DNA of 64,000 nt, taken from positions 408,635 to 472,634 of the forward strand of contig NZ_JARKNC010000002.1 of the NCBI RefSeq assembly GCF_029360805.1, read 5' to 3'. The notes beneath the pieces were generated by a model. That model searched no databases. It was not told the DNA's origin and saw nothing but the letters and a program-made list of their open reading frames with translations. This document shows, one piece after another, positions 9,840 through 61,853 of the stretch. Both the position numbers and the translations under genes were made by a program. Numbering within the stretch: position 1 is the first letter of the stretch; each line of letters opens with the position of its first letter. This stretch comes from Daejeonella sp. JGW-45. Its GTDB lineage: Bacteria; Bacteroidota; Bacteroidia; Sphingobacteriales; Sphingobacteriaceae.

Positions 9840-9881
9840 TTACTTTATACCTCATACCTCATACCCTCTTCGGCATACTCC
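9840..9881. repeat. Heptamer array H1 (ATACCTC word)
   Basis: Six 7-bp units in register (ATACCTC twice, then ATACCCT and variants). The stop codon of the MBL hydrolase (9845-9847) and its last residues GMRYEV are encoded by the array. Confidence 0.7.
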
Positions 9882-10609
9882 AGCTCGATGTTCTTAATAT
9901 TTATCAGCATCTCTTTATCGAAATGAGTGAGAAGGATCCTTTTGCAATTAAGACGGCTCAGGTGCTCCCGGAGCTGTAGGTAATTCATGTGCCCTTTAAC
10001 CTCCATTGTATAAAAGCAGCACTCGCAAATAAACAGGTCGGCCCTGTCTGCAAGTGAAATAAGCGTATCCGTCCACCCGGTATCGCCCGAATAACTTACA
10101 ACCTTACCGCCCAGGCCAAGCCTGACCCCGTGAGGCAACGCTTCTTTGGTATGAAAAACAGGGAAGCTTTCTACGGTCAGGTCTCCCAGATGGAAGATCT
10201 TGCTGTTATTGAAAGACCAGAACTCAATTTCAAGCTTTTCTAATACCTGGGAGCCGGGATATAGCAAAGCCAGCAAACTTTTCAGCTTCTCAAGACAACC
10301 AGGCGGCGATATTATATTAAGCTTCTTCTTTTGTCCGTAAGTTGCCAGGTACAAAAGCACAAAGGGAAGCCCTCCATAGTGATCGCCATGAAAGTGGGTG
10401 ATGATGATGGCATCAATATCCGGAAGCGGTACCTTATGGGATTTCAATGCAGGCAAAGAACTCGCCCCGCAATCAATAAGGGCCTTAACCGAATTATTTT
10501 TCAGATAAAAGCATGTGTTTAATTGCCCTCCGCTGCCGAAGGCATCGCCGCAACCAATGATTTTCACCGAAGCAGTATCCATACTTCTGAAACAGAGCTT
10601 ATACATCAA
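9845..10609 (-). CDS. MBL-fold metallohydrolase (RNase Z-like)
   Basis: 254 residues with the metallo-beta-lactamase signature THFHGDHYGG (about 71-80) and later metal ligands in VFHTKE, YSGDTGW and LTHFDKE. The overall length and the order of motifs resemble the RNase Z/ElaC group of MBL proteins, but it lacks the flexible arm I would need to call tRNase Z. It is cytoplasmic, with no signal peptide. The start is uncertain: M1, M2 or M10 (10582) are possible, and the core fold begins near residue 13. The 3' end is overprinted by a 7-bp repeat array, so the last about five residues are probably not conserved. Confidence 0.85.
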   Translation of the reverse strand: MMYKLCFRSMDTASVKIIGCGDAFGSGGQLNTCFYLKNNSVKALIDCGASSLPALKSHKVPLPDIDAIIITHFHGDHYGGLPFVLLYLATYGQKKKLNIISPPGCLEKLKSLLALLYPGSQVLEKLEIEFWSFNNSKIFHLGDLTVESFPVFHTKEALPHGVRLGLGGKVVSYSGDTGWTDTLISLADRADLFICECCFYTMEVKGHMNYLQLREHLSRLNCKRILLTHFDKEMLINIKNIELEYAEEGMRYEV

Positions 10610-10735
10610 TGTTTTGAACCGTCAGAGGCTTACTGTAAGATAACGTCCAATTTATTTAGATTAAATACAAATAATTTGTTTTTGAATTAACTTTTCCTGT
10701 TATTTGCCGCAATTTATAATCAATCTTAATAAAAG

Positions 10736-22479: not shown

Positions 22480-22489
22480 ATTTTTTGAG

Positions 22490-22604
22490 TTATACGTTTT
22501 ACGTTATAAGTTATAAGTTGCTAAACGCTGGCAAAAATCAAAAGTTATTCAGCGTTTAGAATCAGTGGGTTTTACGTAAAACGCACAACGTATAACGTTC
22601 AACT
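22490..22604. repeat. Heptamer array H2 (TTATACG/TATAACG words)
   Basis: The left half has TTATACG, TTTTACG and TTATAAG twice; the right half has TTTTACG, TAAAACG, CACAACG and TATAACG. Between them lies a perfect TAAACGCTG/CAGCGTTTA stem (22522-22558). It begins four bases after the nrdA stop and ends 11 bases before the CWC start. Confidence 0.8.
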
Positions 22605-25031: not shown

Positions 25032-25146
25032 TTACTAGGTGATGGGGATTAGGCTTTAGGTGTTAGGGATTAGGTATTAGGTAAGATTGAAAGAACACTT
25101 TCAGCTTTCAACTTTCAACTTTCAACTTTCCCCTTTCAACTCCTTA
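25032..25146. repeat. Heptamer arrays H3a/H3b (TTAG and CTTTCAA words)
   Basis: H3a (25032-25087) has eight units, mostly ending in TTAG (GGATTAG, GCTTTAG, GTATTAG). H3b (25098-25139) has six units of CTTTCAA type, and its register continues exactly onto the nrdB stop codon (25144-25146). Both lie in the nrdB-nrdA gap, inside the operon. Confidence 0.85.
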
Positions 25147-26112
25147 AAAGTCCTCTTCCAAAGAGAAATTCTGCGTCTCTCTTCCCGAAAGCACTCCTGA
25201 TTTTTGATAATCGCCTACTCTTTTTTCAAAGAAGTTCGTTTTGCCTTGCAGGGATATCATTTCCATGAAATCGAATGGATTTGAAGCACCATAAATTTTG
25301 GCATACCCCAATTCGTCTATCCAGCGGTCTGCCACAAACTCAATATATTGCTTCATTAGCCTGGCATTCATCCCGATGAGGTCGACCGGCAGGGCTTCTG
25401 TAATAAACTCCTTTTCAATTTCTACCGCATCGCGAATGATGGAATGGATTTTTTCTTCGGGCAATTTGCTGGAAAGCATTCTGTAAAGCAGGCAGGCAAA
25501 TTCGCAATGAAGGCCTTCGTCGCGGCTGATCAATTCGTTACTGAATGTTAAGCCAGGCATAAGTCCCCGTTTCTTTAACCAGAAAATAGAGCAAAAGCTG
25601 CCACTGAAAAATATGCCTTCAACCGCTGCGAAAGCTACAAGACGCTCAGCAAAGGTTCCGTTATCAATCCATCTTAGTGCCCATTCAGCCTTTTTCTTAA
25701 CTGCAGGAACTGTATCGATCGCATGGAATAAATGATCTTTCTCTTTGCTATCTTTTATATAAGTATCGATGAGAAGTGCGTACGTTTCAGAATGGATATT
25801 TTCCATCATGATCTGGAATCCATAAAAACAACGCGCTTCCGGAACCTGAACTTCGCTCATGAAATTTACCGCGAGATTTTCATTTACGATACCATCACTG
25901 GCTGCGAAAAATGCGAGGATATGCGAGATGAAGTGCCGCTCACCATCGTTAAGATTATCCCAATCTTTAAGATCACCAGAGAGATCGATCTCCTCGGCTG
26001 TCCAGAAACTGGCTTCATGTTTTTTGTACATCTCCCAGATCTGGGGATAGTTAATGGGAAGGATCACAAAACGATCCTTGTTCTCTTTAAGTAATACTTC
26101 TTCCTGTTGCAT
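25144..26112 (-). CDS. nrdB: Ribonucleoside-diphosphate reductase, beta subunit (class Ia)
   Basis: 322 residues from the ATG at 26112; a ten-codon extension to a TTG at 26142 is less likely. Di-iron ligands are visible in ENIHSETY (E-x-x-H), AVEGIFFSG and DEGLHCEF (E-x-x-H). The tyrosine four residues after the first ligand His (HSETY) is in the position of the class Ia radical Tyr. It makes and stores the radical used by NrdA. It is the first gene of the operon, 108 bases behind a cobalamin riboswitch, so B12 probably lowers its expression. Confidence 0.96.
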
Positions 26113-26136
26113 AATCTTTGTTTTAGTGACAAGAAA

Positions 26137-26184
26137 TGACAAAAGGCAACATTGCTTCGAAAGAAGATGAGCGGGCTTTTGTCA
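26137..26184 (-). promoter_or_regulatory. Expression-platform hairpin of the nrdB leader
   Basis: A perfect 9-bp inverted repeat TGACAAAAG/CTTTTGTCA (26137-26145 and 26176-26184) encloses a smaller CTTC/GAAG hairpin between the riboswitch and nrdB. It ends 25 bases before the ATG. Its role as the switching element is inferred from position. Confidence 0.5.
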
Positions 26185-26219
26185 AAACTTTATTCGTGAA
26201 AGCTTTGAACAAACTATTT

Positions 26220-26384
26220 TGGCAGGTGTCTGGCTTGCAGCTATGAGCTATGAGCAGGAAGCTGTGAACAAAAGTTCAAAGCTGATTTCTCATAGCTGAC
26301 AGCTACTTACAGTTGCACGTCAGCCCGTGATTTTAACACGGTTCCCTTTTAATTGTCCCGCAGGTGCGAGACAAACCGGATAGT
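26220..26384 (-). ncRNA. Cobalamin riboswitch upstream of nrdBA
   Basis: On the minus strand the leader shows the conserved cobalamin-aptamer blocks in order: CCGGTTTGTC (about 26370-26380), AAAAGGGAA (26342-26350), the B12 box CTGACGTGCAACTGTAAG (26306-26323) and GCCAGACACCTGCC (26221-26234). Such riboswitches normally shut off expression when adenosylcobalamin is abundant. The variable arm between the B12 box and the 3' block (26239-26307) is an unusually long hairpin built of 7-bp AGCTATG-type words. Control of a B12-independent reductase by B12 suggests a B12-dependent class II enzyme elsewhere in the genome. Confidence 0.9.
26239..26307. repeat. Heptamer array H4 forming a riboswitch arm
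   Basis: The plus strand reads AGCTATG, AGCTATG, AGCAGGA, AGCTGTG, then a loop, then AGCTGAT, TTCTCAT, AGCTGAC and AGCTACT. The two halves are largely complementary (for example AGCTATGAG with CTCATAGCT), giving a stem of about 30 bp with mismatches. Confidence 0.75.
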
Positions 26385-26537
26385 TTATGTAAAAGAACTT
26401 GTGGGATAAAAGTAGAAGATAAATCAGCTTGCCCGGCTATGAAGTTTTAAACATCTGGTGGAATTCTTAACACCGGTTTTATTTAAGACCGAACTATAGA
26501 GTTTTTGATCTGTTATGACACCAGTAAATTACTTTGC

Positions 26538-30432: not shown

Positions 30433-30435
30433 GAA

Positions 30436-30566
30436 GGGTGAATTGGGAATAGGAAATAGGGAATTACCTGCTGCTGTTCAATTTCCTATTCCCAATTTGC
30501 TTATTCCCCATTCCCTATTCTCCATTTCCTATCCCCATTTGCTATTTCCCATTTGCTATTCCCAAA
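30436..30566. repeat. Heptamer array H5 (TTCCCAT/TTGCTAT words)
   Basis: Five left units (TTGGGAA, TAGGAAA, TAGGGAA) face about thirteen right units of the complementary type (TCCTATT, TCCCTAT, TTCCTAT, TTGCTAT). The register breaks once, by one base. The array starts right after the aldehyde dehydrogenase stop, and the halves can pair. Confidence 0.85.
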
Positions 30567-31739: not shown

Positions 31740-31880
31740 GTAATCTGTGGTCAGTAATCAGTGACACCGTGCTAACCCGCCAATTACTACCACCGAATAC
31801 TGTTTACCGAATACTAATAACTGAGCACTGATAACTGTTTACCGAATACTGATTACTGAATCCTGATTACCAACGATTAC
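31740..31880. repeat. Heptamer array H6 (ACTGATA/GTAATCA words)
   Basis: Four left units (GTAATCT, GTGGTCA, GTAATCA, GTGACAC) are followed by fourteen right units in uninterrupted register from 31783 (ATACTGT, TTACCGA, TAACTGA, ATACTGA, TTACTGA). It starts 12 bases after the mnmA stop, and the halves are partly complementary. Confidence 0.88.
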
Positions 31881-37790: not shown

Positions 37791-37875
37791 CCTGAGGTCT
37801 GATGCCTGAGGTCTGAGTAAATCGGAGATTCGGATTTCCGGCTTCCTGCATCAGACTTCAGTCCTCAGACCTCAA
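37788..37875. repeat. Heptamer array H7 (AGGTCTG/TCCTCAG words)
   Basis: Left units TGACCTG, AGGTCTG, ATGCCTG and AGGTCTG start on the rnr stop codon. Right units GCATCAG, ACTTCAG, TCCTCAG and ACCTCAA are their complements. The spacer is about 32 bases. The next gene starts 40 bases later. Confidence 0.85.
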
Positions 37876-39432: not shown

Positions 39433-39474
39433 AAAAACGTAATACTTATAACGTAATACGTATAACTTATAAAG
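39433..39474. repeat. Heptamer array H8 (TAATACG/TATAACG words)
   Basis: Six units in register (AAAAACG, TAATACT, TATAACG, TAATACG, TATAACT, TATAAAG). The rplU stop codon (39467-39469) lies inside. The array fills the gap between rplU and rpmA, within one operon. Confidence 0.8.
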
Positions 39475-39778
39475 TGATACCCGTGATCTCGATCTTGGTG
39501 AACTGCTGACGATGACCGTTTTTCTTTTTGTAGCCTTTACGACGTTTCTTCTTGAAAACGATCACTTTTTCTCCTTTTAAATGAGACACGATCTTAGCAG
39601 AAACTTTGGCGCCTTTCAATGCATCCGCACCGATAGAAAACTTACCACCATTCTCAGCTAATAACACATTGTCAAATTCAATACTAGCGCCTTCTTCTCC
39701 CTGTAAACGGTGTACAAAAAGATATTGGTCTTTAGCAACTTTAAATTGCTGTCCGGCTATATTTACTATTGCGTACAT
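39467..39778 (-). CDS. rplU: 50S ribosomal protein L21
   Basis: 103 residues, standard length. MYAIVNIAGQQFKVAKDQYLFVHRL at the start and the C-terminal signature KKKRRKGYKKKNGHRQQFTKIEITGI are diagnostic. It binds 23S rRNA in the large subunit. First gene of rplU-rpmA, with a consensus -7 box 28 bases upstream. The stop codon is part of a heptamer array. Confidence 0.97.
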   Translation of the reverse strand: MYAIVNIAGQQFKVAKDQYLFVHRLQGEEGASIEFDNVLLAENGGKFSIGADALKGAKVSAKIVSHLKGEKVIVFKKKRRKGYKKKNGHRQQFTKIEITGITL

Positions 39779-44255: not shown

Positions 44256-44389
44256 AACTGAAAACTGAAGCCAGGAGGTTAATCCGAACTAATTTACTTA
44301 TCTTGTTTAATTCAGAAGATTTTCAGTTTTCAGTTTTCAGTTTTCAGTTTTCAGTTTTCAGTTTTCAGTTTTCAGTTTTCAGTTTTCAG
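44256..44389. repeat. Heptamer array H9 (ten perfect TTTTCAG units)
   Basis: Two AACTGAA units (44256-44269) face ten perfect copies of TTTTCAG at 44320-44389. The stop codon of the PliI-like gene (44372-44374) lies in copy eight. The perfect identity suggests recent expansion and likely copy-number variation between strains. Confidence 0.95.
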
Positions 44390-45004
44390 TTGGTCATCGA
44401 TCTCCCTAACATTCAAACTATTACTTCTTAAACTATATTCCAGTTTCCTGATCTCGCCGGTTGCCTTACTTGCTGAATCCCCGGTGCTGAATAAAGGAAA
44501 CTCACGCATTAGCTTTCCTTCCTTTACATAAACAGAATCATTGCCTTTATATCCCTTTTTCAAAGATCCGCTTAGATCGGGAAAACGGATCTGCTGATTC
44601 GAACCTCCTTCACTATATTCATAAATGTACATACTCAGATAAGACCCTTCACCCTCACCTTTCGATTGAATATATAATTCGGGGTTACCATCTGAATCAA
44701 GGTCCATATCCCAGGCATCAACAATCTTACCATCAAGCTCTCCCGCTATCGAACGGTAACTCATATGCGTTGAATCAGAACGCAGCACAAGATAACCGCC
44801 AACGGAATTGGAACCCCTGCCCCAGCTTACAATATCAAGGGTAAGGCCTGGTTTAACTTCAATTGCCTTATGATAGCGAAATGGCTGCATAACCTTTTTC
44901 GGCTCCGGTTTGCTGGAAACCACCGGGGCTTTTTCTTCACTTGTGCATGAAATAAAAAGAGCCGTCGATAACATCACTGCCGAAATTCTATTTAATAAGT
45001 TCAT
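44372..45004 (-). CDS. Lipoprotein with PliI-like domain
   Basis: About 210 residues from the ATG at 45004; the longer frame to 45256 runs through trxB and is not real. MNLLNRISAVMLSTALFISC is a lipoprotein signal. The domain has strands ending in GGYLVLRSD, then the loop DMDLDSDGNPELYIQSKGEGEGSYLSMYIYEY, which resembles the periplasmic inhibitors of I-type lysozyme (PliI). The resemblance is by pattern, so this is tentative. The last residues, about QLKTEN, are written by a heptamer array. It is 46 bases after trxB on the same strand. Confidence 0.6.
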   Translation of the reverse strand: MNLLNRISAVMLSTALFISCTSEEKAPVVSSKPEPKKVMQPFRYHKAIEVKPGLTLDIVSWGRGSNSVGGYLVLRSDSTHMSYRSIAGELDGKIVDAWDMDLDSDGNPELYIQSKGEGEGSYLSMYIYEYSEGGSNQQIRFPDLSGSLKKGYKGNDSVYVKEGKLMREFPLFSTGDSASKATGEIRKLEYSLRSNSLNVREIDDQLKTEN

Positions 45005-45020: not shown

Positions 45021-45055
45021 TCTTGGTTCCTGGTTCCTGATACTTGGCTCTTAAC
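45021..45055. repeat. Heptamer array H10 (TCCTGGT word)
   Basis: Five units in register (TCTTGGT, TCCTGGT, TCCTGAT, ACTTGGC, TCTTAAC). The last contains the trxB stop codon (45051-45053). It occupies most of the gap to the PliI-like gene. Confidence 0.75.
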
Positions 45056-48622: not shown

Positions 48623-48652
48623 TTGTCATTGCGAGCGCAGCGAAGTAACAGC
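48623..48652. repeat. GTCATTGCGAGCGCAGCGAAG-type intergenic repeat
   Basis: TGTCATTGCGAGCGCAGCGA at about 48628-48647 matches a repeat widely seen between genes in many bacterial phyla. Here it encodes the last residues and stop of the M19 dipeptidase gene (SLRSQ, stop). Confidence 0.75.
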
Positions 48653-49804
48653 CTTATTCGCCTTCAATAACCGCACAAAATTTGCACCCAATATATTTAT
48701 GATATCTTTTTCCGCATAGCCCCTTTTCAGCAGCGCATCTGTGATCACCGGATAATTGGACACATCATCCAGGTGCTGAGGATAAGATTCTGCACCATCA
48801 TAGTCTGCACCGAGTCCTACATGTTCTGACCCGACCAGCTTAACCATATGGTCTATGTGATCTATCAGCAGTTCCAGGGGCGCACGCATATAATATATCT
48901 CTTGCTTATATTTCTCGTTGATCTCATTCTGTGCTTTCGAGCGACTTGAATACTTTTTAGTTAATTCGGCCAGCTCCGCTTTGTGATCAGCAATAAACTT
49001 AGCTTGCTTCCCCGAATACGTACTGTCCAGGAACCCGCTGTAAAAATTCACGAAAACAACACCGCCTGTCCGGGCGATGCCCTTTATTTGCTCGTCTTTC
49101 AGGTTACGTTGGTGGGCATTGAATTTATATGCCGAGCTGTGCGACGCCATTACAGGCTTTGTCGTAATCTTTAATACATCATTAACGGTGGTTTCCCCTA
49201 CATGCGAAAGATCGACTATCACACCCAGTTCATTCATTCTTTTAATAATCTTCTTTCCCAGATCTGTCAACCCCAGATGCTTCAAACTGTCCCTCTTAAA
49301 AGTTTCGTCATAGGCCGAACTAGCCCAGGGAGTGCTATTATTCCATGTGAGAGTCATATAGGTCATGCCGCGCGCTGCCAGTGCCTCCAGATAATCTATC
49401 CTGCTTTCTATCATATGACCACCTTCCACACCGATCATGCCGGCCATTCTTTTAGACCGTACAACCGATTCTAACTCAGACGCCGTTTTCACCAGTTGAA
49501 GTTTGTCGGCGTGCCTCCTGGCAAGTGCATTCAGGGAATCAATCTGCCGGTTCGCCAGCGCGAATCCTCCTGAGGCGTCACTCCAGATAGAAAAAACCTG
49601 AACATCAAGACCACCTTCACGCGCCCTGACCAGGTCAAAATTTCCCCCCGGCTGACGCTTTCCCACGTCAATTCCGGATCTGATCTGATCGGACATAATA
49701 TCTCCGTGCGTGTCAACTACAACCGCTTTTTTATGCAATTTAGAGGATTGCCCGAATGCGTGGATTGACGTTAGCAGGGAGACTGCAAGTAGTATTTTTT
49801 TCAT
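48626..49804 (-). CDS. Secreted membrane-type dipeptidase (peptidase M19)
   Basis: 392 residues with a signal peptide (1-18, ending AFGQ). Zinc-ligand motifs of renal dipeptidases are present: VVDTHGDIMSD (HxD), GVEGGHMIESR, VDLSHVGETT, MASHSSAYKF and GLGADYDGAESYP. Members cleave dipeptides, often those with a C-terminal D-residue, in the periplasm. Together with the D-aminoacylase earlier in the window this hints at D-amino acid peptide turnover. The C-terminal five residues come from an intergenic repeat. Confidence 0.92.
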   Translation of the reverse strand: MKKILLAVSLLTSIHAFGQSSKLHKKAVVVDTHGDIMSDQIRSGIDVGKRQPGGNFDLVRAREGGLDVQVFSIWSDASGGFALANRQIDSLNALARRHADKLQLVKTASELESVVRSKRMAGMIGVEGGHMIESRIDYLEALAARGMTYMTLTWNNSTPWASSAYDETFKRDSLKHLGLTDLGKKIIKRMNELGVIVDLSHVGETTVNDVLKITTKPVMASHSSAYKFNAHQRNLKDEQIKGIARTGGVVFVNFYSGFLDSTYSGKQAKFIADHKAELAELTKKYSSRSKAQNEINEKYKQEIYYMRAPLELLIDHIDHMVKLVGSEHVGLGADYDGAESYPQHLDDVSNYPVITDALLKRGYAEKDIINILGANFVRLLKANKAVTSLRSQ

Positions 49805-49841: not shown

Positions 49842-50199
49842 GACCCCGAAGGCGGTCACATATTTATAGTAATTAATATTTCCGACCAATCGACCCTGAA
49901 GGTGGTCACATATTTATAGTAATTAATATTTCCGACCAATCGACCCCGAAGGTGGTCACATATTTATAGTAATTAATATTTCCGACCAATCGACCCTGAA
50001 GGTGGTCACATATTTATAGTAATTAATATTTCCGACCAATCGACCCCGAAGGTGGTCACATATTTATAGTAATTAATATTTCCGACCAATCGACCCCGAA
50101 GGTGGTCGTATGTGAAGCTGTCAAGCATATACGACCGCCTTCCGGGGTCGGGGTCGGGGCTGTAAAGATGTTCTATAAACGTGTGACCCCTTCGGGGTC
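49842..50199. repeat. Palindromic repeat cluster 3 (six 50-bp tandem units plus two inverted)
   Basis: Five full 50-bp units and a sixth partial one begin at 49842, 49892, 49942, 49992, 50042 and 50092. Each opens with GACCCYGAAGGYGGTC and continues ATATTTATAGTAATTAATA. Alternating C/T at one position in units 1-5 shows that 100-bp dimers were duplicated. After a 26-base spacer, inverted modules follow at 50133-50149 and 50185-50199. Unlike a CRISPR, the sequence between palindromes is identical. The gap 49805-50271 holds nothing else except array H11. Confidence 0.95.
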
Positions 50200-50220: not shown

Positions 50221-50276
50221 CTATTTGCTAATTTGCTCATTTCCTAATTTTATCATCTACGAATTTGCCTCTCACG
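50221..50276. repeat. Heptamer array H11 (CTATTTG/CTAATTT words)
   Basis: Units CTATTTG, CTAATTT, GCTCATT and TCCTAAT, then weaker ones, reach the stop codon of the acyl-CoA carboxylase gene (50272-50274). Confidence 0.55.
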
Positions 50277-51900
50277 TCTGCAGCACCCCTACATTAAACT
50301 GCTTTTCTATAGGCGCCTGGTTCGCCGCTTCAATTCCCATAGAAATTACTTTTCTGGTTTCAAGCGGGTCGATAATACCGTCTACCCACAGCCTTGAGGC
50401 AGCGTAGTAGGGAGTTGTCTGGTTGTCATAACGGTCTGTGATCTCTTTCAGCAGCTCGGTTTCTTTCTCCTGGGTGATTTCTTCGCCTTTAGCTTTCAAT
50501 GACGCCTCTTTAATTTGCAAAAGCACCTTCGCCGCCTGCGATCCTCCCATTACAGCAATCTTGGCCGAAGGCCAGGCAAAGATAAGCCTTGGGTCATAAG
50601 CTTTACCGCACATGGCATAGTTACCCGCGCCGTAAGAGTTCCCTATCACAATAGTGAACTTTGGAACAACCGAATTGGCCACGGCATTTACCATTTTAGC
50701 ACCATCCTTGATGATACCTCCCTGCTCAGAACGACTGCCAACCATAAAGCCGGTTACATCCTGTAAAAAAACAAGCGGGATTTTTTTCTGATTGCAGTTC
50801 ATGATAAAACGGCTTGCCTTGTCCGCGGAGTCTGAATAAATAACCCCCCCAAACTGCATTTCACCTTTTTTACTTTTAACTACTTTACGCTGGTTGGCAA
50901 TAATTCCAACCGCCCAGCCATCAATACGACCCAGGCCGCAGATGATGCTCTGACCATAAAGGGCTTTATATTCTTCCAGTTCAGAATTGTCCAGTAAGCG
51001 CTTAATAATCTCCCTCATATCATACGGGCTTTCGCGGCTTTCCGGCAGCAGCCCGTATATCTCTTCTTCATCCAGCTTCGGCGGAGCTGCCTTTACCCGG
51101 TCGAAACCGGCATTCTCAGGTGAACCGATCATGCCGACGATCTTGCGTATAGAATCCAGGCATGTTGCATCATCCGGATGTTTGTAATCCGTAACGCCGG
51201 ATATTTCGCTATGTGTTGATGCGCCTCCAAGAGTTTCATTGTCGATATCTTCCCCTATAGCTGATTTTACCAGGTAGCTTCCCGCAAGGAAAACAGACCC
51301 GGTACCCTCCACGATCATTGCCTCATCGCTCATTATCGGCAAATAAGCACCGCCAGCTACGCAGGATCCCATGATTGCCGATATCTGTACAAGGCCTCTG
51401 CTGCTCATGATGGCATTGTTGCGGAATATTCTTCCGAAATGTTCTTTATCCGGAAATATCTCATCCTGAAGAGGCAGGAACACTCCCGCCGAGTCTACCA
51501 GATAAATTACCGGCAAGCGATTTTCCATCGCAATTTCCTGAGCGCGGAGGTTCTTTTTTGCTGTCATAGGAAACCAGGCGCCAGCCTTAACTGTGGCGTC
51601 ATTTGCCACGATCATGCACTGACGGCCAGATACATAACCGATACCGCAAACTACTCCGGCGGAGGGACAACCGCCAAATTCCTTGTACATATCCTCAGCC
51701 GCAAAGGAGCCTATTTCCAACCAGGGCTTGCCCTCATCCAGCAAATATGAAATTCGTTCCCGGGCGAGCATCTTACCTTTCTCTTTTTGTTTAGCTGCTG
51801 CCTTCTTCCCGCCTCCGGCATATATTGCCTTCAAACGACTTTTGACTTCATATAAGAGCTGCTTGTTTTTGTCTTCGTTTTTATTGAACTCCAGATCCAT
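50272..51900 (-). CDS. Acyl-CoA carboxylase, carboxyltransferase subunit
   Basis: 542 residues, the full length of biotin-dependent carboxyltransferase beta subunits (propionyl-CoA or methylcrotonyl-CoA type). Landmarks: LARERISYLLDEG, the oxyanion-hole glycine pairs in AVMGGSQAAKVL and GNSYGAGNYAMCGKAYDPRLIFAWPSAK, and FLQDVTGFMVG. It transfers CO2 from carboxybiotin to an acyl-CoA. ITDRYDNQTTPYYAASRLWVDGIIDP near the C-terminus favours the methylcrotonyl-CoA type. The biotin-carboxylase partner is not in the window. A methyltransferase gene is 38 bases upstream. Confidence 0.92.
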   Translation of the reverse strand: MDLEFNKNEDKNKQLLYEVKSRLKAIYAGGGKKAAAKQKEKGKMLARERISYLLDEGKPWLEIGSFAAEDMYKEFGGCPSAGVVCGIGYVSGRQCMIVANDATVKAGAWFPMTAKKNLRAQEIAMENRLPVIYLVDSAGVFLPLQDEIFPDKEHFGRIFRNNAIMSSRGLVQISAIMGSCVAGGAYLPIMSDEAMIVEGTGSVFLAGSYLVKSAIGEDIDNETLGGASTHSEISGVTDYKHPDDATCLDSIRKIVGMIGSPENAGFDRVKAAPPKLDEEEIYGLLPESRESPYDMREIIKRLLDNSELEEYKALYGQSIICGLGRIDGWAVGIIANQRKVVKSKKGEMQFGGVIYSDSADKASRFIMNCNQKKIPLVFLQDVTGFMVGSRSEQGGIIKDGAKMVNAVANSVVPKFTIVIGNSYGAGNYAMCGKAYDPRLIFAWPSAKIAVMGGSQAAKVLLQIKEASLKAKGEEITQEKETELLKEITDRYDNQTTPYYAASRLWVDGIIDPLETRKVISMGIEAANQAPIEKQFNVGVLQT

Positions 51901-53185: not shown

Positions 53186-53269
53186 GCCCGGATGGCGAAA
53201 TTGGTAAACGTTGCGGTCTCAGAAGCCGTTGGAGTTAAATCCTTGAGAGTTCGAGTCTCTCTTCGGGCA
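53186..53269 (+). tRNA. tRNA-Leu (CAG anticodon)
   Basis: An 84-nt class II tRNA. Acceptor GCCCGGA/TTCGGGC with an A discriminator, D-loop GGCGAAATTGGTAAAC, long variable arm GTTGGAGTTAAATCC and T-arm GTTCGAGTC. The anticodon loop CTCAGAA gives CAG, reading CTG codons. CCA is not encoded. Confidence 0.95.
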
Positions 53270-53270
53270 C

Positions 53271-53317
53271 AAACGTAATACGTTGTACGTTATACGTTTT
53301 AAGTTTTAAGTTATAGG
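53271..53317. repeat. Heptamer array H12 (TTATACG word) between two tRNAs
   Basis: Units TAATACG, TTGTACG, TTATACG, TTTTAAG twice and TTATAGG fill the 53-bp spacer between the two tRNA-Leu genes. The register begins at the 3' end of the first tRNA. Confidence 0.8.
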
Positions 53318-53322: not shown

Positions 53323-53406
53323 GCCCAGGTGGCGAAATTGGTAGACGCACCACTTTGAGGGGGTGGCGCCTTAACGGGTGTGGCAGTTCGAATCTGCTCC
53401 TGGGCA
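53323..53406 (+). tRNA. tRNA-Leu (GAG anticodon)
   Basis: An 84-nt class II tRNA: acceptor GCCCAGG/CCTGGGC with an A discriminator, D-loop GGCGAAATTGGTAGAC, variable arm GGCGCCTTAACGGGTG and T-arm GTTCGAATC. The anticodon stem CCACT/GGTGG encloses TTGAGGG, giving GAG, which reads CTC and CTT. It is in tandem with the CAG isoacceptor and followed by a strong terminator. Confidence 0.95.
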
Positions 53407-53424
53407 CAAAAGATTACTTTAGGG

Positions 53425-53450: not shown

Positions 53451-53489
53451 GTAAACGCTCGATAAACCCGGTCAACTAACCGCTCAGAC

Positions 53490-53517
53490 TTACAACGTAT
53501 AACGTACCTCGTATCAC
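53490..53517. repeat. Heptamer array H13 (AACGTAT word)
   Basis: Four units (AACGTAT, AACGTAC, CTCGTAT, CACTCAA) run onto the stop codon of the DUF6266 gene (53514-53516). Confidence 0.6.
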
Positions 53518-54128
53518 TCAATCAGCATTCTTCCCAAATACACGCTATTCGAACACCTATCCCGTTCCTCTGTAATAAATGCTATATACAAGTCTGCTTC
53601 ATGACCGCCGAATGTTGTGCATTTGAGTGTCTGTTTACCGACACGCCGCGTCGCTCCGCATAGATCTGCGTAGGAAAAGTTCAAATCATCGGAATGGGCC
53701 ACGACCATTACGTGATCGTTATTGTTTTCTACAGGCTCCCAGGTAAACTCAAGAATTCCCGGTTCTATCTGTGTTACACCCGGCGATGCCGGTATAGGCA
53801 GGTCACCCCAGGATATCAATACACGGGAAGGATCTACAGTAAAATCCTCCCTGATCGCGTTAAGCTTGAGATATGATAAGGCACTGCCGAACCCATGCTG
53901 CTTCCGCGAGTAATTTTTAAAACCTACCCGTACAGCGGGTAGAATAGGTTTGAGCCATTGCTGTGCTACCTTCATTCGCTTTTGGTTGTCGAGCTGCTTT
54001 TGAGTTCTAGCTTTACTTATTCGCGGTAATCCGCGGATAATCCCCTGACCGTAGCGATCAACGTAACCTACAACGGATCCGGCCTTGCCGCGAAAGGGTC
54101 CGTTAACCCCATTTATTAATACTGCCAT
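53514..54128 (-). CDS. DUF6266 family protein
   Basis: 204 residues from the ATG at 54128. The longer frame to 54224 adds 32 residues derived from the 11-bp array and is rejected. MAVLINGVNGPFRGKAGSVVGY and the following KARTQKQLDNQKRMKVAQQWLKPI are typical of DUF6266 proteins of Bacteroidota. These are soluble and of unknown function, and frequently occur as isolated, variable genes. The last half is a fibronectin-like beta domain (SWGDLPIPASPGVTQIEPGILEFTWEP). Flanked on both sides by repeat arrays. Confidence 0.82.
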   Translation of the reverse strand: MAVLINGVNGPFRGKAGSVVGYVDRYGQGIIRGLPRISKARTQKQLDNQKRMKVAQQWLKPILPAVRVGFKNYSRKQHGFGSALSYLKLNAIREDFTVDPSRVLISWGDLPIPASPGVTQIEPGILEFTWEPVENNNDHVMVVAHSDDLNFSYADLCGATRRVGKQTLKCTTFGGHEADLYIAFITEERDRCSNSVYLGRMLIE

Positions 54129-54184
54129 AATTCTTTCTTTAGTTAATGCTTTAGCTAATAGAAAGTTACCTAAACTTATCATAT

Positions 54185-54283
54185 AATCAAGGGATAATTT
54201 GCAGGTTATTCGAAGATTATTCACAAATTATCCGTCAATTTCCCTAAAACATCCGAACAAGCTCCGAATAAGCTCCGAAGAAA
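54185..54283. repeat. 11-bp register array (CTCCGAATAAG words)
   Basis: Nine 11-bp units in register: AATCAAGGGAT, AATTTGCAGGT, TATTCGAAGAT, TATTCACAAAT, TATCCGTCAAT, TTCCCTAAAAC, ATCCGAACAAG, CTCCGAATAAG and CTCCGAAGAAA. It begins 56 bases upstream of the DUF6266 start. Confidence 0.7.
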
Positions 54284-56497: not shown

Positions 56498-56581
56498 TTC
56501 TATTTTCTAATCTATTTCTTAACGTTTATTTCCTAATCCTTAAAGCCTAATCCCTAAAGCCTAAAGCCTAATCCCTAATCC
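56498..56581. repeat. Heptamer array H14 filling the ftsK-lolA gap
   Basis: Twelve units in unbroken register: TTCTATT, TTCTAAT, CTATTTC, TTAACGT, TTATTTC, then CTAATCC, TTAAAGC, CTAATCC, CTAAAGC twice and CTAATCC twice. It runs from beside the lolA ATG (56494-56496) through the ftsK stop codon (56575-56577). Confidence 0.92.
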
Positions 56582-59115
56582 TTTTGATCTAATGTACCCA
56601 AGAACTGTTCCAAAGAATATTCGTCAGGTATAAGAACCTCGCGCGCCTTGCTCCCTTCGAAAGGACCAACAATCCCCGCGGCCTCAAGTTGATCAATTAT
56701 CCGTCCTGCCCTATTGTATCCTAATTTCAGTTTACGCTGAATTAATGACGTAGAGCCCTGTTGGTGCATGACAATTAGTCTTGCTGCCTCTTCAAAGAAC
56801 TGGTCTCTTTCTGACGCATCGAAATCTTTCATGGACGATTCAGAATTTTCATCCAGATATTCAGGCAGCATAAAGGCAGAAGGGTAACCTCGCTGAGAAC
56901 CTATAAATTCCGATACCTTTTCCACTTCGGGTGTGTCGACAAAGGCGCATTGTATCCTTATAAGATCACTGCCGGTGGATAGCAGCATATCTCCCCGTCC
57001 TATGAGCTGATCCGCTCCCCCGCTGTCGAGTATAGTGCGTGAGTCTATTTTGGATAAAACGCGGAAGGCAAGACGGGCAGGAAAATTGGCTTTAATGGTA
57101 CCGGTAATAATGTTTACTGATGGTCTTTGTGTGGCGATCACCAAATGTATTCCAACTGCACGCGCGAGCTGGGCAATACGGGCTATCGGGGTTTCGACTT
57201 CCTTACCCGCAGTCATCATCAAATCGGCAAATTCATCAATAATCAGAACTATAAATGGAAGAAAACGATGACCATCATTCGGGTTAAGCTTCCTGCTGAT
57301 GAATTTCTGGTTATATTCCTTAAGATTCCTGACATGCCCATTTTTCAGAAGGTCGTAGCGCTGATCCATCTCAATGCAAAGGGAATTAAGTGTGGCGATC
57401 ACCTTTTTCGTATCGGTAATTATCGCGTCTTCTTCTCCTGGTAGTTTCGCCAGAAAATGCCGTTCTATCTTCCTGAATAAGGTTAACTCTACCTTTTTAG
57501 GATCTACCAGCACAAATTTCAACTGGGAAGGATGCATTTTATACAAAAGAGACACGAGAATTGAGTTAATACCCACAGATTTCCCCTGTCCGGTTGCCCC
57601 CGCTACGAGCAGGTGAGGCATTTTAGACAAATCGGCGATATAAACCTCGTTGGATATGGTTTTACCGAGTGCAATCGGCAGGTCCATGGTGGTGTTCTGG
57701 AATTTCTCCGTGGCCAGTACGGAACGCATAGACACCATTTCCGGATGCTGATTAGGCACTTCAATACCTATGGTGCCTTTGCCGGGCATGGGAGCAATGA
57801 TACGAATACCCAAAGCAGCAAGACTGAGGGCTATGTCATCTTCCAGGTTTTTGATTTTGGAGATCCTTACTCCCGGTGCGGGAATTATCTCATATAAAGT
57901 TACTGTCGGACCAATGGTTGCTTTGATCTTATCAATCTCAATATTGTAATGATTAAGGGTTTCAACGATCTTGTTTTTGTTTGCTTCCAGTTCTTCGGCG
58001 TTTACAGCGATCTTGTTCGACCCGTAGTTCTCGAGCAGGTCGAGCGGGGGATATTTATAGTTCGACAGGTCGAGAGTAGGGTCATACATACCGAACTGCT
58101 CAACGAGTTCAGTTGCTTTTTTCTCCTCTTCGGACCTTTCGATCACCAAAGCCGGCGATTCCTTAATTTCATTGACAACTGTCTCCGCTGTTTCCATTGG
58201 CACATTCTTCGACGGACTTAACACCACATTAACGTGTTCCTGGGGTTCAGGCTGTGCGGCGGTTTGAACAAGCGGCGGTAAATTCTGATTAATCTTATTG
58301 GTAGCGCCGTTCTCGGAACCTGACCGGTTAGGCAGGTTAAATTCTACGGGCGCATAGGTCACCTCCTCTTCCAATTCTACGTTATCCGGAGTTTCCGGAA
58401 CTACATATCTGGGTTCCTTTTTCCACTCGGGTATCTTGAAGTCAACATTATAAGCAATGATCAGAACAGCTAATCCAGCGAACACGAGCAAACCGGCAGT
58501 TCCCGCATCGCCAATCTGGGCCTGAAGAAGCCGGTTTGTCCAGAAGCCAAACTCGCCCTCCAAATAGTGCGGGTAATCAGATAAAAATGCGTGGAAAAAA
58601 CCTAAGGTAACCGAGATAAATATGAGCAGGAAAAAAGAGTATGACAAAGTCTTCGAGAGGGAAAAAACCTTGATCTTAAACAGCATCCGGTATCCTACGA
58701 CGAAGAAAACCCCTATAAAAATAAAGGATGCTACGCCGAACCATTCAAAAATAAACTGGTGAGATAAGAGAGCTCCGAACTTGCCGAGCCAGTTTTGCAC
58801 TACCGGTTGGTTCAATCCCATTTCACCTAGCTCGGCCTGTGTTTTCCATAAATTAGACCAGCCTCCATTAGCATCGATCACATAGCTTTGATCGTCCTCC
58901 CAGGTAAAAATATAGGAGGTAAAAGCCACCATAAAATATAGAGAGACAATCAGAAAGAATAAGCCGATGATCTTTACCGTGCGATCGTCGTTCAGCCTGA
59001 ATTTGGGCATGACTTCTCCTGTTTCCCTCGGAACCCTTTGTTTTGCTGCAGACTTCGACTTTGGTTCATTACGAAATGAGTTCTCATTTCTGAATTGATT
59101 TCCTCTCAAGGGCAT
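56575..59115 (-). CDS. ftsK: DNA translocase FtsK
   Basis: 846 residues. The N-terminal domain has four membrane helices (about 50-69, 120-139, 155-174 and 203-222), then a low-complexity linker, then the FtsK/SpoIIIE motor: Walker A VAGATGQGKSVGINSILVSLL, Walker B IVLIIDEFADLMM. The C-terminal winged gamma domain (QQGSTSLIQRKLKLGYNRAGRIIDQLEAAGIVGP) reads polar chromosome sequences. It pumps the chromosome terminus at the septum and activates XerCD. A consensus -7 box lies 24 bases upstream. Confidence 0.96.
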   Translation of the reverse strand: MPLRGNQFRNENSFRNEPKSKSAAKQRVPRETGEVMPKFRLNDDRTVKIIGLFFLIVSLYFMVAFTSYIFTWEDDQSYVIDANGGWSNLWKTQAELGEMGLNQPVVQNWLGKFGALLSHQFIFEWFGVASFIFIGVFFVVGYRMLFKIKVFSLSKTLSYSFFLLIFISVTLGFFHAFLSDYPHYLEGEFGFWTNRLLQAQIGDAGTAGLLVFAGLAVLIIAYNVDFKIPEWKKEPRYVVPETPDNVELEEEVTYAPVEFNLPNRSGSENGATNKINQNLPPLVQTAAQPEPQEHVNVVLSPSKNVPMETAETVVNEIKESPALVIERSEEEKKATELVEQFGMYDPTLDLSNYKYPPLDLLENYGSNKIAVNAEELEANKNKIVETLNHYNIEIDKIKATIGPTVTLYEIIPAPGVRISKIKNLEDDIALSLAALGIRIIAPMPGKGTIGIEVPNQHPEMVSMRSVLATEKFQNTTMDLPIALGKTISNEVYIADLSKMPHLLVAGATGQGKSVGINSILVSLLYKMHPSQLKFVLVDPKKVELTLFRKIERHFLAKLPGEEDAIITDTKKVIATLNSLCIEMDQRYDLLKNGHVRNLKEYNQKFISRKLNPNDGHRFLPFIVLIIDEFADLMMTAGKEVETPIARIAQLARAVGIHLVIATQRPSVNIITGTIKANFPARLAFRVLSKIDSRTILDSGGADQLIGRGDMLLSTGSDLIRIQCAFVDTPEVEKVSEFIGSQRGYPSAFMLPEYLDENSESSMKDFDASERDQFFEEAARLIVMHQQGSTSLIQRKLKLGYNRAGRIIDQLEAAGIVGPFEGSKAREVLIPDEYSLEQFLGTLDQKD

Positions 59116-59194: not shown

Positions 59195-59352
59195 TGGCTT
59201 AAACCTTACGGGCGGTTGCGAGTCTTATAATTAAGTGGTATGTAATTATACTGAGAATATTTTAAACCAGTATAACGCTTTTAAGGCAGCATATTACATA
59301 GTTTAGGTTTAGGTGGTTGATCCCACTCCTTGGTCAGGAGTGGGATTTTTTT
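59195..59352 (+). ncRNA. Candidate structured non-coding RNA
   Basis: Nested complementary blocks are visible: TTAAACC (59199-59205) with GGTTTA (59306-59311), ATGTAAT (59240-59246) with ATTACAT (59293-59299), and an inner hairpin TTATACTG/CAGTATAA (59246-59253 and 59268-59275). The block is followed at once by a textbook terminator (59320-59352). No open frame explains it. The arrangement, a closed multi-stem structure with its own terminator about 160 nt long, is what a 6S-like or other small RNA would look like. I do not recognise the family and see no convincing promoter. Confidence 0.5.
59320..59352 (+). terminator. Intrinsic terminator upstream of the ankyrin gene
   Basis: ATCCCACTCCT, a 5-base loop, AGGAGTGGGAT and seven T residues. 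It lies before the ankyrin start (59411), so it must end a different transcript, the candidate RNA, or act as an attenuator. Confidence 0.9.
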
Positions 59353-59410
59353 GTTTATTTTTATTAATATTGATTGTCGGACAGATATTTATCTTTTAAA
59401 ACAGGAAATA

Positions 59411-60058
59411 ATGGATCAGGATTTACTGGAAGAATACATCCAAACAGGCAATTCCAATGAGCTGGATGCCCTGCTAAACGGTAATCCCAAACTCGCAACG
59501 CTAAAAACAAGCCTTCAGGTATCTCCCCTGATGTTGTGCTGTTATTATAAAAAGCCGGAGTTGTCTGAGATTATACTAAAATATATTAACGATATTACTT
59601 TTTTTGAAGCCGCAGCCTTGGGAAAGCAGGACCTGGTAGAGCAAAAACTGCAAGATAATCCCACCCTGATCCATGAGTTTTCGGACGACGGCTTCAGCCC
59701 ACTGGGCCTGGCTTCATATTTTGGGAATGAAGATGTGGTCAGGTTATTACTTCTGAAAGGTGCGGAACCGAACATTCCGTCGCAGAACGGGTATAATGTT
59801 TACCCTATCCATTCTGCCGTATCATCGAACTATGACATGATCGCTAAAATGCTCCTGGAGGCGGGGGCGAATGTAAATGTAGTGCAGATGTCGGGAGCCA
59901 CTCCTCTACATTCTGCTGCCCATAACGGCAATATTGAATTGTTGATTGTGCTTCTTGAAGCCGGAGCTAACGTAGATGCTAAAATGGAGGACGGTAAAAC
60001 TCCGGCAGATAAAGCGTCCGAGAAGGGTTTTGGGGAAATTGCGAAAATACTTTCGTGA
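59411..60058 (+). CDS. Ankyrin-repeat protein
   Basis: 215 residues from the ATG at 59411; the frame from 59330 would read through the terminator and is rejected. About four to five ankyrin repeats are recognisable, best in GFSPLGLASYFGNEDVVRLLLLKGAEPNI, YPIHSAVSSNYDMIAKMLLEAGANVNV and TPLHSAAHNGNIELLIVLLEAGANVDA. A soluble, cytoplasmic protein-interaction scaffold. The N-terminal 60 residues form two weaker repeats. The partner is unknown. Confidence 0.9.
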   Translation: MDQDLLEEYIQTGNSNELDALLNGNPKLATLKTSLQVSPLMLCCYYKKPELSEIILKYINDITFFEAAALGKQDLVEQKLQDNPTLIHEFSDDGFSPLGLASYFGNEDVVRLLLLKGAEPNIPSQNGYNVYPIHSAVSSNYDMIAKMLLEAGANVNVVQMSGATPLHSAAHNGNIELLIVLLEAGANVDAKMEDGKTPADKASEKGFGEIAKILS

Positions 60059-60197
60059 GAGGAGCAAGGATCAAGGAACAAAGAGCAAAGATTTGTCCAC
60101 TGAAATAAATCAATAACCTGCTAATTTGACTAAAGCGACTACATCCTCATTAACGCATAGATGTCTTTATTCTTTTATCTTTATTCCTTACTCCTAA
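60057..60197. repeat. Heptamer array H15, two facing halves
   Basis: The left half (60057-60091: GCAAGGA, TCAAGGA, ACAAAGA, GCAAAGA) starts on the ankyrin stop codon. The right half (60163-60197: GTCTTTA, ATCTTTA, TTCCTTA, CTCCTAA) contains the PspC stop codon (60194-60196). The halves are roughly complementary. Between them are 71 bases without a recognisable feature. Confidence 0.8.
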
Positions 60198-60416: not shown

Positions 60417-61697
60417 TTATATGTTCAATAACTTCATTCCAATGCCACAAGATAAGCATTTCTTCTGATCGCAATAAGCTTTTTTTAGCTCAATTAACGA
60501 CTGTGAGAAAAATGCATTCTCTGGCCGGATGTTAATTTCTTTAAAACGGCTTATCAAGGAATTTGTTTCAGGTTCGAGGTTCTCGAGCAGGATGATGCTG
60601 CGGTTAACGTGCTCATGTGAGCAGACCTGTCTTCCGTAGGCCATCAGAAATACAGCCACAGTATTAATCAGGATGCTGTTAACTGACTGTTTTCCCAAGC
60701 GGCACGTGCAGCGAACGGGATCGGTATCAAAACGGTAGTGGCTCTCCCAATATTTATTGACGGGAAGATGATCAAACATTTTGATCAGTGCAGCTATATC
60801 TGTTTCTGCAATTACATTTGAAAACAAATGGTTCGACCTGATAATGAGCGAGGCAAATTGAGCAAGCCTTATTGTCGGAAAATTTGCGGGCCGCATCCTT
60901 AAATATTTCCAGAGATAGTTATCTATTGATCTTAAAGAATGCTTTTTCTTGAGAAAAGAATATTCCTTCGTCAGCAACCTGGGATATTCATCCTGATATG
61001 GCTGGTTTAAAAATCCGGCTTGCCCGAAAATCAGCGCTTCTATCTGAAGAGGTCTATCCTTATATCTGGAAACGAGCCGCCGCGGAAGAGACCTCGCCAG
61101 CATTTCAAAGGGTATCGCATTTACTTTGAATCCGAAATTTATGGCCAGAAATATGTAAAAAGCGTCATCCCAACTTCCGTTGAGCTCGGAGAGCAAATAG
61201 CTGATCGTGGCTGATTTCTTCTCCAGTCTTTCAATTCCGACCCGGTAAAGCCAGTTCCTTATATGAAAAACATCCACTTCGGCTATCTGACGGCTGCAAG
61301 GTATCCAATCCAGGCACTCAATGAGTGTGAGGTATTTATTAGTGATCTGCTTTGGTGTAAGGTGCTCCAGGCATAGCACGGGGATCATCGTTTGGTCTGA
61401 ACGGACAATATCCTGGTCATGCTTCCCTACGACGTGCAGGATCACATTGTCGTAGGCCATATCTGACTGATGATTATGACGGCTCCAATCGGACGAGCGC
61501 AAATGTATCTCCACATTTCCGACCCAAAGAGTTCCGCCAATTCTGATCGTCGCACCTTCAAAATCCGGTCCCGCGTGAGAGTTATGGATCCCAACTTTCA
61601 GTATTTCGATCGGTTCACCTGAAGTAGTTCGCAAGTCCCTCTGCTCAAACAGCCGGAATTTCCATAAGTAATGGAGAAAGTCTTCAGGTACAGCCAT
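60417..61697 (-). CDS. DUF2851 family protein
   Basis: 426 residues, soluble. MAVPEDFLHYLWKFRLFEQRDLRTTSGEPIEILKVGIHNSHAGPDFEGATIRIGGTLWVGNVEIHLRSSDW is the conserved N-terminal domain (nuclease-like beta core in appearance). The C-terminus has four cysteines around CDQKKCLSCGIG that may bind zinc. The family is Bacteroidota-restricted and its function is unknown. First gene of a pair with the PspC protein. Confidence 0.88.
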   Translation of the reverse strand: MAVPEDFLHYLWKFRLFEQRDLRTTSGEPIEILKVGIHNSHAGPDFEGATIRIGGTLWVGNVEIHLRSSDWSRHNHQSDMAYDNVILHVVGKHDQDIVRSDQTMIPVLCLEHLTPKQITNKYLTLIECLDWIPCSRQIAEVDVFHIRNWLYRVGIERLEKKSATISYLLSELNGSWDDAFYIFLAINFGFKVNAIPFEMLARSLPRRLVSRYKDRPLQIEALIFGQAGFLNQPYQDEYPRLLTKEYSFLKKKHSLRSIDNYLWKYLRMRPANFPTIRLAQFASLIIRSNHLFSNVIAETDIAALIKMFDHLPVNKYWESHYRFDTDPVRCTCRLGKQSVNSILINTVAVFLMAYGRQVCSHEHVNRSIILLENLEPETNSLISRFKEINIRPENAFFSQSLIELKKAYCDQKKCLSCGIGMKLLNI

Positions 61698-61790
61698 AGT
61701 TTAATCTACGGCGTTGTTACACAGTTACATTATTTTATGATCGAATGGTGGGTTTTATTGAGGTTCTGGTTGTTGCAGTTTGAGGGAAGT

Positions 61791-61853
61791 GTCAGTATTC
61801 TGTAATCAGTAACCAGTAATCAGTATTCGGTTACTGCTTACTGGTTACTGATT
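61791..61853. repeat. Heptamer array H16 (ATCAGTA/ACTGGTT words)
   Basis: Units GTCAGTA, TTCTGTA, ATCAGTA, ACCAGTA and ATCAGTA face ACTGCTT, ACTGGTT and ACTGATT. The halves pair, and the pyrF stop codon (61845-61847) is in the array. Confidence 0.88.

Follow-up and report, generated by a model that had tools for sequence, protein, structure and literature searches.

Gene-end arrays of many 7-bp words under one placement and strand rule in Daejeonella sp. JGW-45

The stretch of DNA analysed here, which we call the window, comprises 64,000 nucleotides (positions 408,635-472,634 of NZ_JARKNC010000002.1) of the 4.10-Mb draft genome of Daejeonella sp. JGW-45 (Sphingobacteriaceae, Bacteroidota). 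Its gaps carry short tandem arrays of 7-bp words, or heptads, and the genes adjoining them include topA, the gene for RNase R and an FtsK-like gene (Table 1). A first-pass annotation of the window had listed 16 intergenic arrays of this kind, each with its own word, and had taken the period rather than the word to be the conserved property. For the present work the window was combined with 20 stretches of 20 kb from the same genome into a sample of 464 kb (11%), and a 400-kb sample was taken from Daejeonella lutea DSM 22385, to which the thioredoxin reductase of the window is 96% identical, against 89-91% for other Daejeonella records. Three loci titled Sphingobacterium thalpophilum or Pedobacter schmidteae (L014, L015, L016) have a thioredoxin reductase at 90%, as near as the Daejeonella records, and are possibly misnamed bins. 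Genes were called, with no use of annotation, as the longest non-overlapping open reading frames (ORFs) with a minimum length of 100 codons (80 for the lag test of the window). Each periodic intergenic segment was assigned to its best period among 4-15, and arrays with a score T of at least 14 are termed strong.

When period 7/14 was scored in each of the 16 listed stretches and in 1000 dinucleotide shuffles of it, no shuffle reached the observed score at 13 loci, two did so at 26239 and one at 53490. Fifteen of the 16 thus beat their local shuffles; the remaining one, 50221, was matched by 496 of 1000 shuffles and has a best period of 8 (8/16 according to TRF). The autocorrelation by lag that the first-pass annotation had suggested as a check bears out its view of the period. 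In the intergenic DNA of the window the lag-7 match excess has a z of 10.8, with echoes at lag 14 (z 7.6) and lag 21 (z 5.3), and no such excess is present in the coding DNA of the window (z -2.8), while lag 1 is elevated in both (13.8 and 21.5, respectively). Of the strong intergenic arrays in the 464 kb, 43 have period 7 and 13 have period 14, with three at period 11, one at period 8 and none at the other periods; shuffled gaps give no strong array at period 7 or 14, and coding DNA, despite having sevenfold more bases, gives a single one of period 7. D. lutea has 33 strong arrays of period 7 and 11 of period 14 (two and one, respectively, in coding DNA), together with three at period 10 and five at period 11. 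By extrapolation, the whole genome would contain roughly 500 strong arrays of the period-7/14 type. The three and five arrays at period 11 in the two genomes form a weak excess of their own, and the named loci have a likewise weak excess at period 8, with eight arrays in Pedobacter and four in Mucilaginibacter.

The arrays are mostly noncoding, as had been proposed, although some begin within the last codons of a gene, and within the gaps they favour gene ends. In the window's genome they take up 12.6% of the bases of convergent gaps, 11.4% of ++ gaps, 4.8% of -- gaps and 2.1% of divergent gaps; the corresponding shares in D. lutea are 9.4%, 7.0%, 5.0% and 2.5%. Since the ++ and -- shares are expected to be equal, the difference between them reflects sampling noise. 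In 21 cases an array edge is no more than 3 nt away from a stop codon, where random placement predicts 4.2 (in D. lutea 10, with 2.9 predicted); edges on the start side are not in excess (1 against 1.8 expected; 0 against 1.0 in D. lutea). In the sampled genomes taken together, there are 106 distinct gene ends (108 before identical gene ends were removed) at which an array starts between 30 nt before and 12 nt after the stop codon. In 42 of these the array contains the stop codon, and in 37 of the 42 a stop recurs in register, a proportion that follows partly from how overlapping arrays were chosen, and the other 64 have no stop-codon register. Seeding by stop codons as the sole origin was therefore rejected, as it suits the 42 overlapping arrays but not the 64.

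The arrays also follow a strand rule. Of the 99 near-stop arrays that are left once doubly sampled loci are removed, 84 have more G than C on the sense strand (33/35 in the window's genome, 10/14 in D. lutea, 26/33 in the 79 named loci, 15/17 in other sampled genomes), the 15 contradicting arrays being retained in the count; before that removal the figure was 87/102. Near starts, C exceeds G in 38/46 (12/14, 10/12, 10/12 and 6/8 in the same order), a figure identical in the first count. Array-free gaps have no G>C bias after stops (44:61 and 44:51). Locus L009, from the same genome as the D. lutea sample, was dropped from the strand and stop-register counts; L159 and L163, which repeat L058 and L017, were dropped from the final strand count and stand in the first, and L163 also remains in the terminator count below. 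In convergent gaps of L164 and L017 (genes 46388-48622 and 48626-49804), the two ends carry different words, each on the strand of its own gene, and the rule is thus independent of pairing. Stop codons in all three frames were considered as the cause of the strand. They occur on the sense strand in 57/106 and on the antisense strand in 15/106, but in 49/106 one frame or more is free of them. On visual inspection, the strand is also constant in the ACGT and CAGTAAT families, even though either strand of these can carry stops; such stops are retained as a partial cause. The first-pass annotation had included neither this placement nor the strand rule, nor the precedents from Xanthomonas, Nostoc, Beggiatoaceae and a few Bacteroidetes discussed below.

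The words themselves are not unique to their loci, contrary to the initial description. Sharing was counted with one word per gap, near-identical words within a gap being counted once, and identity was accepted in any rotation or strand. Identical words link 68 of 1581 pairs of gaps, 16 times the 4.3 (maximum 9) expected from letter-shuffled words; D. lutea has 41/557 against 1.7, and pairs across the two species 40/1938 against 3.9. The main families are AAACTGA/GTTGAAA, CAGTAAT/CGGTAAT, GTTATAC (ACGTNNN), GGGAATA, TTAGGCT, TCTGAGG, AAGTATC, GTTGAGA/GTTGACA and AGGAGCA. A set of 12 other congeners, to which D. lutea does not belong, was searched for two of the words. TTTTCAG in three copies is found at 11 places on seven contigs of the window's genome and in none of the 12, and ACGTNNN in four copies gives 41 matches at 34 separate positions, two in G003, one in G006 and none in the other 10; the catalogue of the 400-kb D. 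lutea sample has no AAAACTG or ACGTNNN array. Three copies of ACTGATT give 17 overlapping matches in the window's genome, 22 in D. lutea, none in 18 other congeners and one match in one of the other 40 genomes. When words are joined by single changes, 56 of 57 fall into one cluster in the window's genome (26 after shuffling), and D. lutea has eight clusters. Recurrence within a genome together with scarcity in congeners indicates a small lexicon, reused within the genome and turned over between species. The occurrence of the same words at several loci as a dispersed family had been named beforehand as grounds against the first-pass reading, and this is half the case, since words are common to many gaps. 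As a separate observation, the palindrome CCCGATAGCTATCGGG (up to two mismatches) has nine hits in the 464 kb (stretches L122, L123, L126, L129, L131 and L135), six of them beside GTTGAAA/TTTCAG heptads, and none in the D. lutea sample; similar text occurs in the Daejeonella loci L010 and L017, among the matches listed.

Turnover is visible at orthologous gaps, where word, copy number or presence changes between species, a comparison that the first-pass annotation had also proposed. Eleven gaps of the window could be aligned with D. lutea, the listed loci 9840, 22490, 26239 and 45021 lying outside the alignment. Gap 25002 keeps both of its words in D. lutea, shorter and decayed. A different heptad stands in the same place at 39384 (ACGTAAT, against AGTATCA in D. 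lutea) and at 44240 (TTTTCAG in 10 copies, against CTCAGAC in four). Gap 49805 has heptads in D. lutea and other repeats in the window's genome, gaps 31729 and 37791 are partly alike, and five gaps (30433, 53097, 56497, 60059 and 61698) have arrays in the window's genome alone. To illustrate with further relatives, the heptads after gene 39467-39778, among the matches listed, are GTAATAA (L010), GTTATAG (L016), GTTAAGG (L014) and GTTATAA (L164), with differing copy numbers, and AGTTGAC/AGTTGAG heptads follow gene 46388-48622 in L010, L012, L016, L017 and L164, among the matches listed, with none in the window's genome. Neighbouring units in the window's genome are identical more often than permutation of units allows (66 against 41.9, z 5.5 at distance 1; z 3.5 at distance 2), as are units at distance two in D. 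lutea (z 5.7). Such a pattern is characteristic of local duplications 7 or 14 nt in length and, with the replaced words, upholds the local amplification suggested at the outset; perfect runs of 10-15 units occur. In D. lutea, a macro-satellite at ~17600-18050 of L148 has units of roughly 46-52 bp, each made of GTTGAGA heptads.

The lag-7 z in the 45 nt after stops, computed against shuffles, is 14.6 in the window's genome, 9.3 in D. lutea, 7.4 in other Daejeonella, 11.8 in Pedobacter, 4.3 in Mucilaginibacter and 3.8 in other named loci, the last three being from one orthologous neighbourhood and hence not independent. Beyond these, sequence was obtained for 22 of 25 stretches from other genera of the family and 20 of 22 from other families of the class; the latter give z 4.1 after stops and 4.4 before starts, carried by a few genomes. 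A heptad trait conserved throughout the family was rejected, as random stretches of other family genera give a z of only 1.1 after stops.

The proposal that many arrays consist of two complementary halves that fold holds for about half of the cases. With gaps above 420 nt excluded, the best stem beats all eight shuffles in 20/35 array-bearing gaps, the rest failing to do so, and in 13/22 gaps of D. lutea. The best stem among the 16 loci (score 45) belongs to the CAGTAAT locus at 61792..61860. Adjacent arrays of the same family are inverted in 17 cases and direct in six, with nine adjacent arrays unrelated (14, 7 and 2 in D. lutea, gaps of L148 beyond position 16000 being excluded from this count).

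Canonical intrinsic terminators are absent from most gene ends that carry arrays. A GC-rich stem followed by a T-run was found at 0/46 ends that had an array no more than 60 nt away, against 46/225 array-free ends (two genomes pooled, p 1e-4); at other loci the figures are 4/51 and 188/829 (p 0.013). Random insertion of 45 nt after stops leaves terminators at 13/107 (18 before), 29/118 (28 before) and 175/829 (188 before) ends. As terminators remain visible after such insertion, displacement alone fails to explain the shortage.

Table 1. Arrays and related repeats of the window (positions within the window; strand as assigned)
Feature	Position	Strand	Context
~3 heptads, GAGGTAT type	9841..9865	-	overlaps stop codon of ORF 9845-10609(-)
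GTTATAC/GTTTTAC array	22489..22519	+	convergent gap
Partner words ACGTAAAACGCACAACGTATAACG of GTTATAC/GTTTTAC array	~22574-22603		beside stop of 22608-25001(-)
CCTAATA/CCTAAAG type array (TTAGGNN on +)	25049..25083	-	start side of 22608-25001(-)
GTTGAAA array	25098..25137	-	after stop of 25144-26142(-); D. lutea: same word, shorter
AGCTATG, 2.4 copies	26239..26255	.	inside cobalamin riboswitch 26204-26394(-); probably not one of the gene-end elements
GGGAATA-type 5' arm	30433..30464	+	immediately 3' of TAG of gene 29065-30432; none in D. lutea
Inverted partner arm ATTCCCC/ATTTCCT	30479..30563	+	partner of 30433..30464 arm
Short GTCAGTAATCAGTG-type arm	near 31750		after stop preceding topA gap; recognisable in D. 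lutea
ACTGATT/ACCGAAT array, 35-bp higher-order repeat	31792..31870	+	before topA start (31971-34550)
CCTGAGGTCTGATG array	37791..37816	+	immediately 3' of TGA of RNase R gene 35661-37790
Inverted partner arm TCAGACC	37829..37874	+	partner of 37791..37816 array
GTTATACGTATTACG array	39436..39469	-	includes TAA of gene 39467-39778(-)
Short CTGAAAACTGAAG partner of TTTTCAG array	~44258-44270		after stop of 43643-44239
TTTTCAG, 10 perfect copies	44320..44391	+	D. lutea: CTCAGAC x4 in same gap
Weak TGGTTCC array, 2-3 copies (2.3)	45021..45046	.	
Period-8 repeat ATTTGCTA	50223-50268		earlier listed as 7-bp array
ACGTTAT array	53273..53315	.	between tRNA-Leu genes 53186-53270 and 53323-53407; none in D. 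lutea
TACGAGGTACGTTATACGTTGTAAG array	53488..53513	-	after stop of 53514-54224(-)
TTAGGCT/TTAGGGA array	56513..56578	-	includes stop of FtsK-like gene 56575-59115(-); none in D. lutea
AGGAGCA/AGGATCA array	60060..60091	+	after stop of 59330-60058; none in D. lutea
TCTTTAT pyrimidine array, partner type	60164..60195	+	
CAGTAAT arm and inverted partner	61792..61860	-	overlaps stop of 61845-62681(-); none in D. lutea

Two other repeats of the window stand apart from the arrays. Positions 49842-50107, in the gap after gene 50272-51900(-), hold 5.3 copies of a 50-bp unit with 97% identity, a repeat that has no counterpart at the D. lutea ortholog, and text of the TGTCATTGCGAGCGCAGCGAAG type follows a stop at ~48623-48650, which we take to resemble a widespread dispersed bacterial repeat.

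Any account of the arrays has to accommodate their period, place, strand, shared lexicon, turnover and local duplication as observed here. The account that we favour, and to which we would give about an even chance, is that they are gene-end heptad satellites, enlarged by slippage, which probably serve, or are tolerated, as elements of the 3' ends of transcripts. Replication slippage by 7 or 14 nt would enlarge short seeds at gene ends, often including the stop codon. Arrays entering reading frames would be lost, as 7-nt steps shift the frame and let arrays survive only outside it, and those that survive may, with less certainty, be kept or tolerated because they behave as elements of transcript 3' ends; the near-stop arm, which has more G on the sense strand, could then pair into a stem with an inverted partner before the next gene. 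Several observations weigh against this account. Direct neighbours are not identical to excess in D. lutea (z -0.3). The bias of C over G before starts exists in array-free gaps too (59:102 and 35:86), and only the near-stop half of the strand rule is therefore specific to arrays. Other genera of the family have a lag-7 z near zero (1.1) after stops and of 4.0 before starts, so that the trait is patchy and a preference for stops does not hold generally. Unit-by-unit matching of arms beats all eight unit permutations in only 2/35 gaps (5/22 in D. lutea); the two arms do not mirror each other in their succession of variant units, which gives no sign of selection for exact pairing. The terminator finder was a simple ad hoc search for a stem and T-run, and within any single context the shortage is not significant in the two genomes (p 0.11-0.56), while elsewhere it holds for tandem gaps (p 0.011) and not for convergent ones (p 0.58). 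Some arrays stand at places where no termination would be expected, for instance the ACGTTAT array between two tRNA genes and the array after gene 39467-39778, which lies upstream of an ORF starting MAHKKGAG (the pair presumably being rplU-rpmA). Rho itself is present in 21/21 genomes searched. A Rho-dependent terminator would show as a tract after the stop with more C than G and rich in YC, and would fail in rho mutants; C minus G at array ends is 10.5 against 6.6 when shuffled, a weak Rho-like signal, and YC counts with and without arrays are 10.3 and 10.1 in the window's genome and, in D. lutea, 11.3 and 9.3. Tracts for Rho avoidance and Rho loading have been described in Bacillus, as set out in part of PMC13323073; purine-rich sense tracts and pyrimidine-rich downstream tracts would fit these, but the YC counts lend little support, and the case for the arrays as Rho loading sites is weak.

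Three other explanations were weighed. The arrays might be neutral slippage debris, arising anywhere, eliminated from genes, whose frame a 7-nt unit would break, and persisting without function at gene ends, an explanation that we find plausible if somewhat doubtful. Identity of neighbouring units, the near absence from coding DNA (1 against 43 strong arrays), fast gain and loss between species and the stop-including arrays, whose partly built-in register is what a stop-containing seed would give, all agree with it, as does the proposal of Mrazek quoted in passages of PMC4679880 and PMC4692102. It does not predict the strand rule for arrays that start after the stop and lack its register, the scarcity in divergent gaps, identical words at distant loci or the shortage of terminators seen where arrays end. 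Identical words between gaps are what would be expected if array cassettes were spread by gene conversion between arrays or some mobile process and then diverged, and the 11 TTTTCAG places on seven contigs, with none in the 12 other congeners searched, and the palindrome CCCGATAGCTATCGGG beside heptads at six of nine hits point the same way. This is nonetheless improbable. The words of the window's genome grade into one another by single changes, common flanks, sought through that palindrome only, gave a weak negative, and the genome has a single Y1 transposase gene where 14/20 relatives searched have more, for which reason mobility by REP-associated tyrosine transposases (RAYT) was rejected. 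Least probable of all, and by our estimate very unlikely, is that a protein of the cold-shock or S1 type reads one unit per 7 nt and controls translation of the next gene. The fixed strand of near-start arrays would suit this, as would the forward placement of TAACTGA just upstream of start codons, for which, in the sections concerned of PMC4679880, MacGregor makes such a proposal; the strongest link is nevertheless to stops (lag-7 z 14.6, against 5.7 before starts), and the words are too variable for one site.

The likeness to heptameric repeats of cyanobacteria drawn in the first-pass annotation is apt, and precedents extend further. In the relevant parts of Rehm et al. 2015 (PMC4692102), the GGGAATC and GGGGA(C/T)T heptads of Xanthomonas and Nostoc are found after stops (including overlap) on the coding strand and before starts on the noncoding strand, form inverted pairs, are few between divergent genes and vary in length between relatives. 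The Daejeonella arrays share all of this, being likewise mostly noncoding, single or paired, sense after stops, antisense before starts and rare between divergent genes. They differ in that most words (CAGTAAT, GAAAACT, GTTATAC) lack the tract of at least three G per unit, and where those passages have one G-tract word type with quadruplex potential, Daejeonella has many words, replaceable at orthologous gaps, with terminators mostly lacking. Direct repeats of TAACTGA, according to portions of MacGregor 2015 (PMC4679880), occur in Beggiatoaceae, cyanobacteria and five Bacteroidetes, mostly forward and just before starts; the same portions quote heptanucleotides as the commonest repeats of 5-11 nt in most genomes, with a proposal of slippage. 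These too are mostly intergenic heptads, sporadic across phyla and in several cases missing from the same gap of close relatives, and that survey records long sets and other heptamers in some Bacteroidetes, as in Daejeonella. The Beggiatoaceae, as treated there, have one mainly start-proximal word, and Daejeonella many, mainly stop-proximal; TAACTGA is no array consensus in our two sampled genomes, where the related words ACTGATT, ACTGAAT and AAACTGA are listed, and by our own comparison ACTGATT-type words before starts have the strand sense of TAACTGA. The short tandemly repeated repetitive sequences (STRR) of heterocystous cyanobacteria are intergenic, hairpin-forming 7-bp repeats proposed to serve transcript stability or termination, and the part of PMC2670836 that deals with them describes neither a strand rule nor word replacement. 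Heptamer-derived bacterial satellites (PMC6749651) and the GGGACCG and MTYCTGA elements of Geobacter (PMC2700814) are multi-locus heptad arrays as well, with no stop or strand rule reported in the pertinent passages of either source. By the measures applied to heptameric simple sequence repeats (STRR or long simple sequence repeats, LSSR), namely a tandem 7-bp unit well above chance at many intergenic loci with one or few words per genome, the Daejeonella arrays belong with them, although their words outnumber the published cases.

Enterobacteria have intergenic palindromic elements at gene 3' ends, the repetitive extragenic palindromic sequences and bacterial interspersed mosaic elements (REP/BIME). 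In passages of PMC13289151, REP act as 3'-end stabilising hairpins. The Daejeonella arrays are not REP with a RAYT, having no fixed sequence, a strict 7-nt period and a single Y1_Tnp gene in the genome. Phase-variation repeats are another class, placed in or before surface genes, where they switch frame or promoter; the genes beside the arrays of the window include topA, the RNase R gene and the FtsK-like gene. The kind of element is thus already known from the Rehm heptads, TAACTGA and STRR. As far as our searches show, what is new is that many non-G-tract words follow one grammar in one genome, that the strand rule is counted over several genera of Bacteroidota, that words are replaced at orthologous gaps and that canonical terminators are scarce at array ends; the open-access literature, to which the search was largely confined, yielded no paper on these arrays in Daejeonella or Pedobacter.

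Heptads have so far been noticed group by group, mostly as one word with a role of its own, such as quadruplexes or translational sites. In Daejeonella an orthologous gap can exchange its word for another with period and position unchanged, so that the 7-nt step and the gene-end location are separable from the sequence. Many words under one grammar of placement and strand, together with such swaps, argue against quadruplexes or a single protein as the explanation, and their common rule of placement and direction suggests a role at transcript ends. It is conceivable, though we think it unlikely, that several phyla share a gene-end element conserved only in its 7-nt step and its transcription-fixed strand, the word being free, in which case 7-nt-stepped copying would take place at transcript 3' ends and the arrays would be interchangeable replacements for terminators. 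The old question of why seven is the favoured unit becomes testable in D. lutea DSM 22385.

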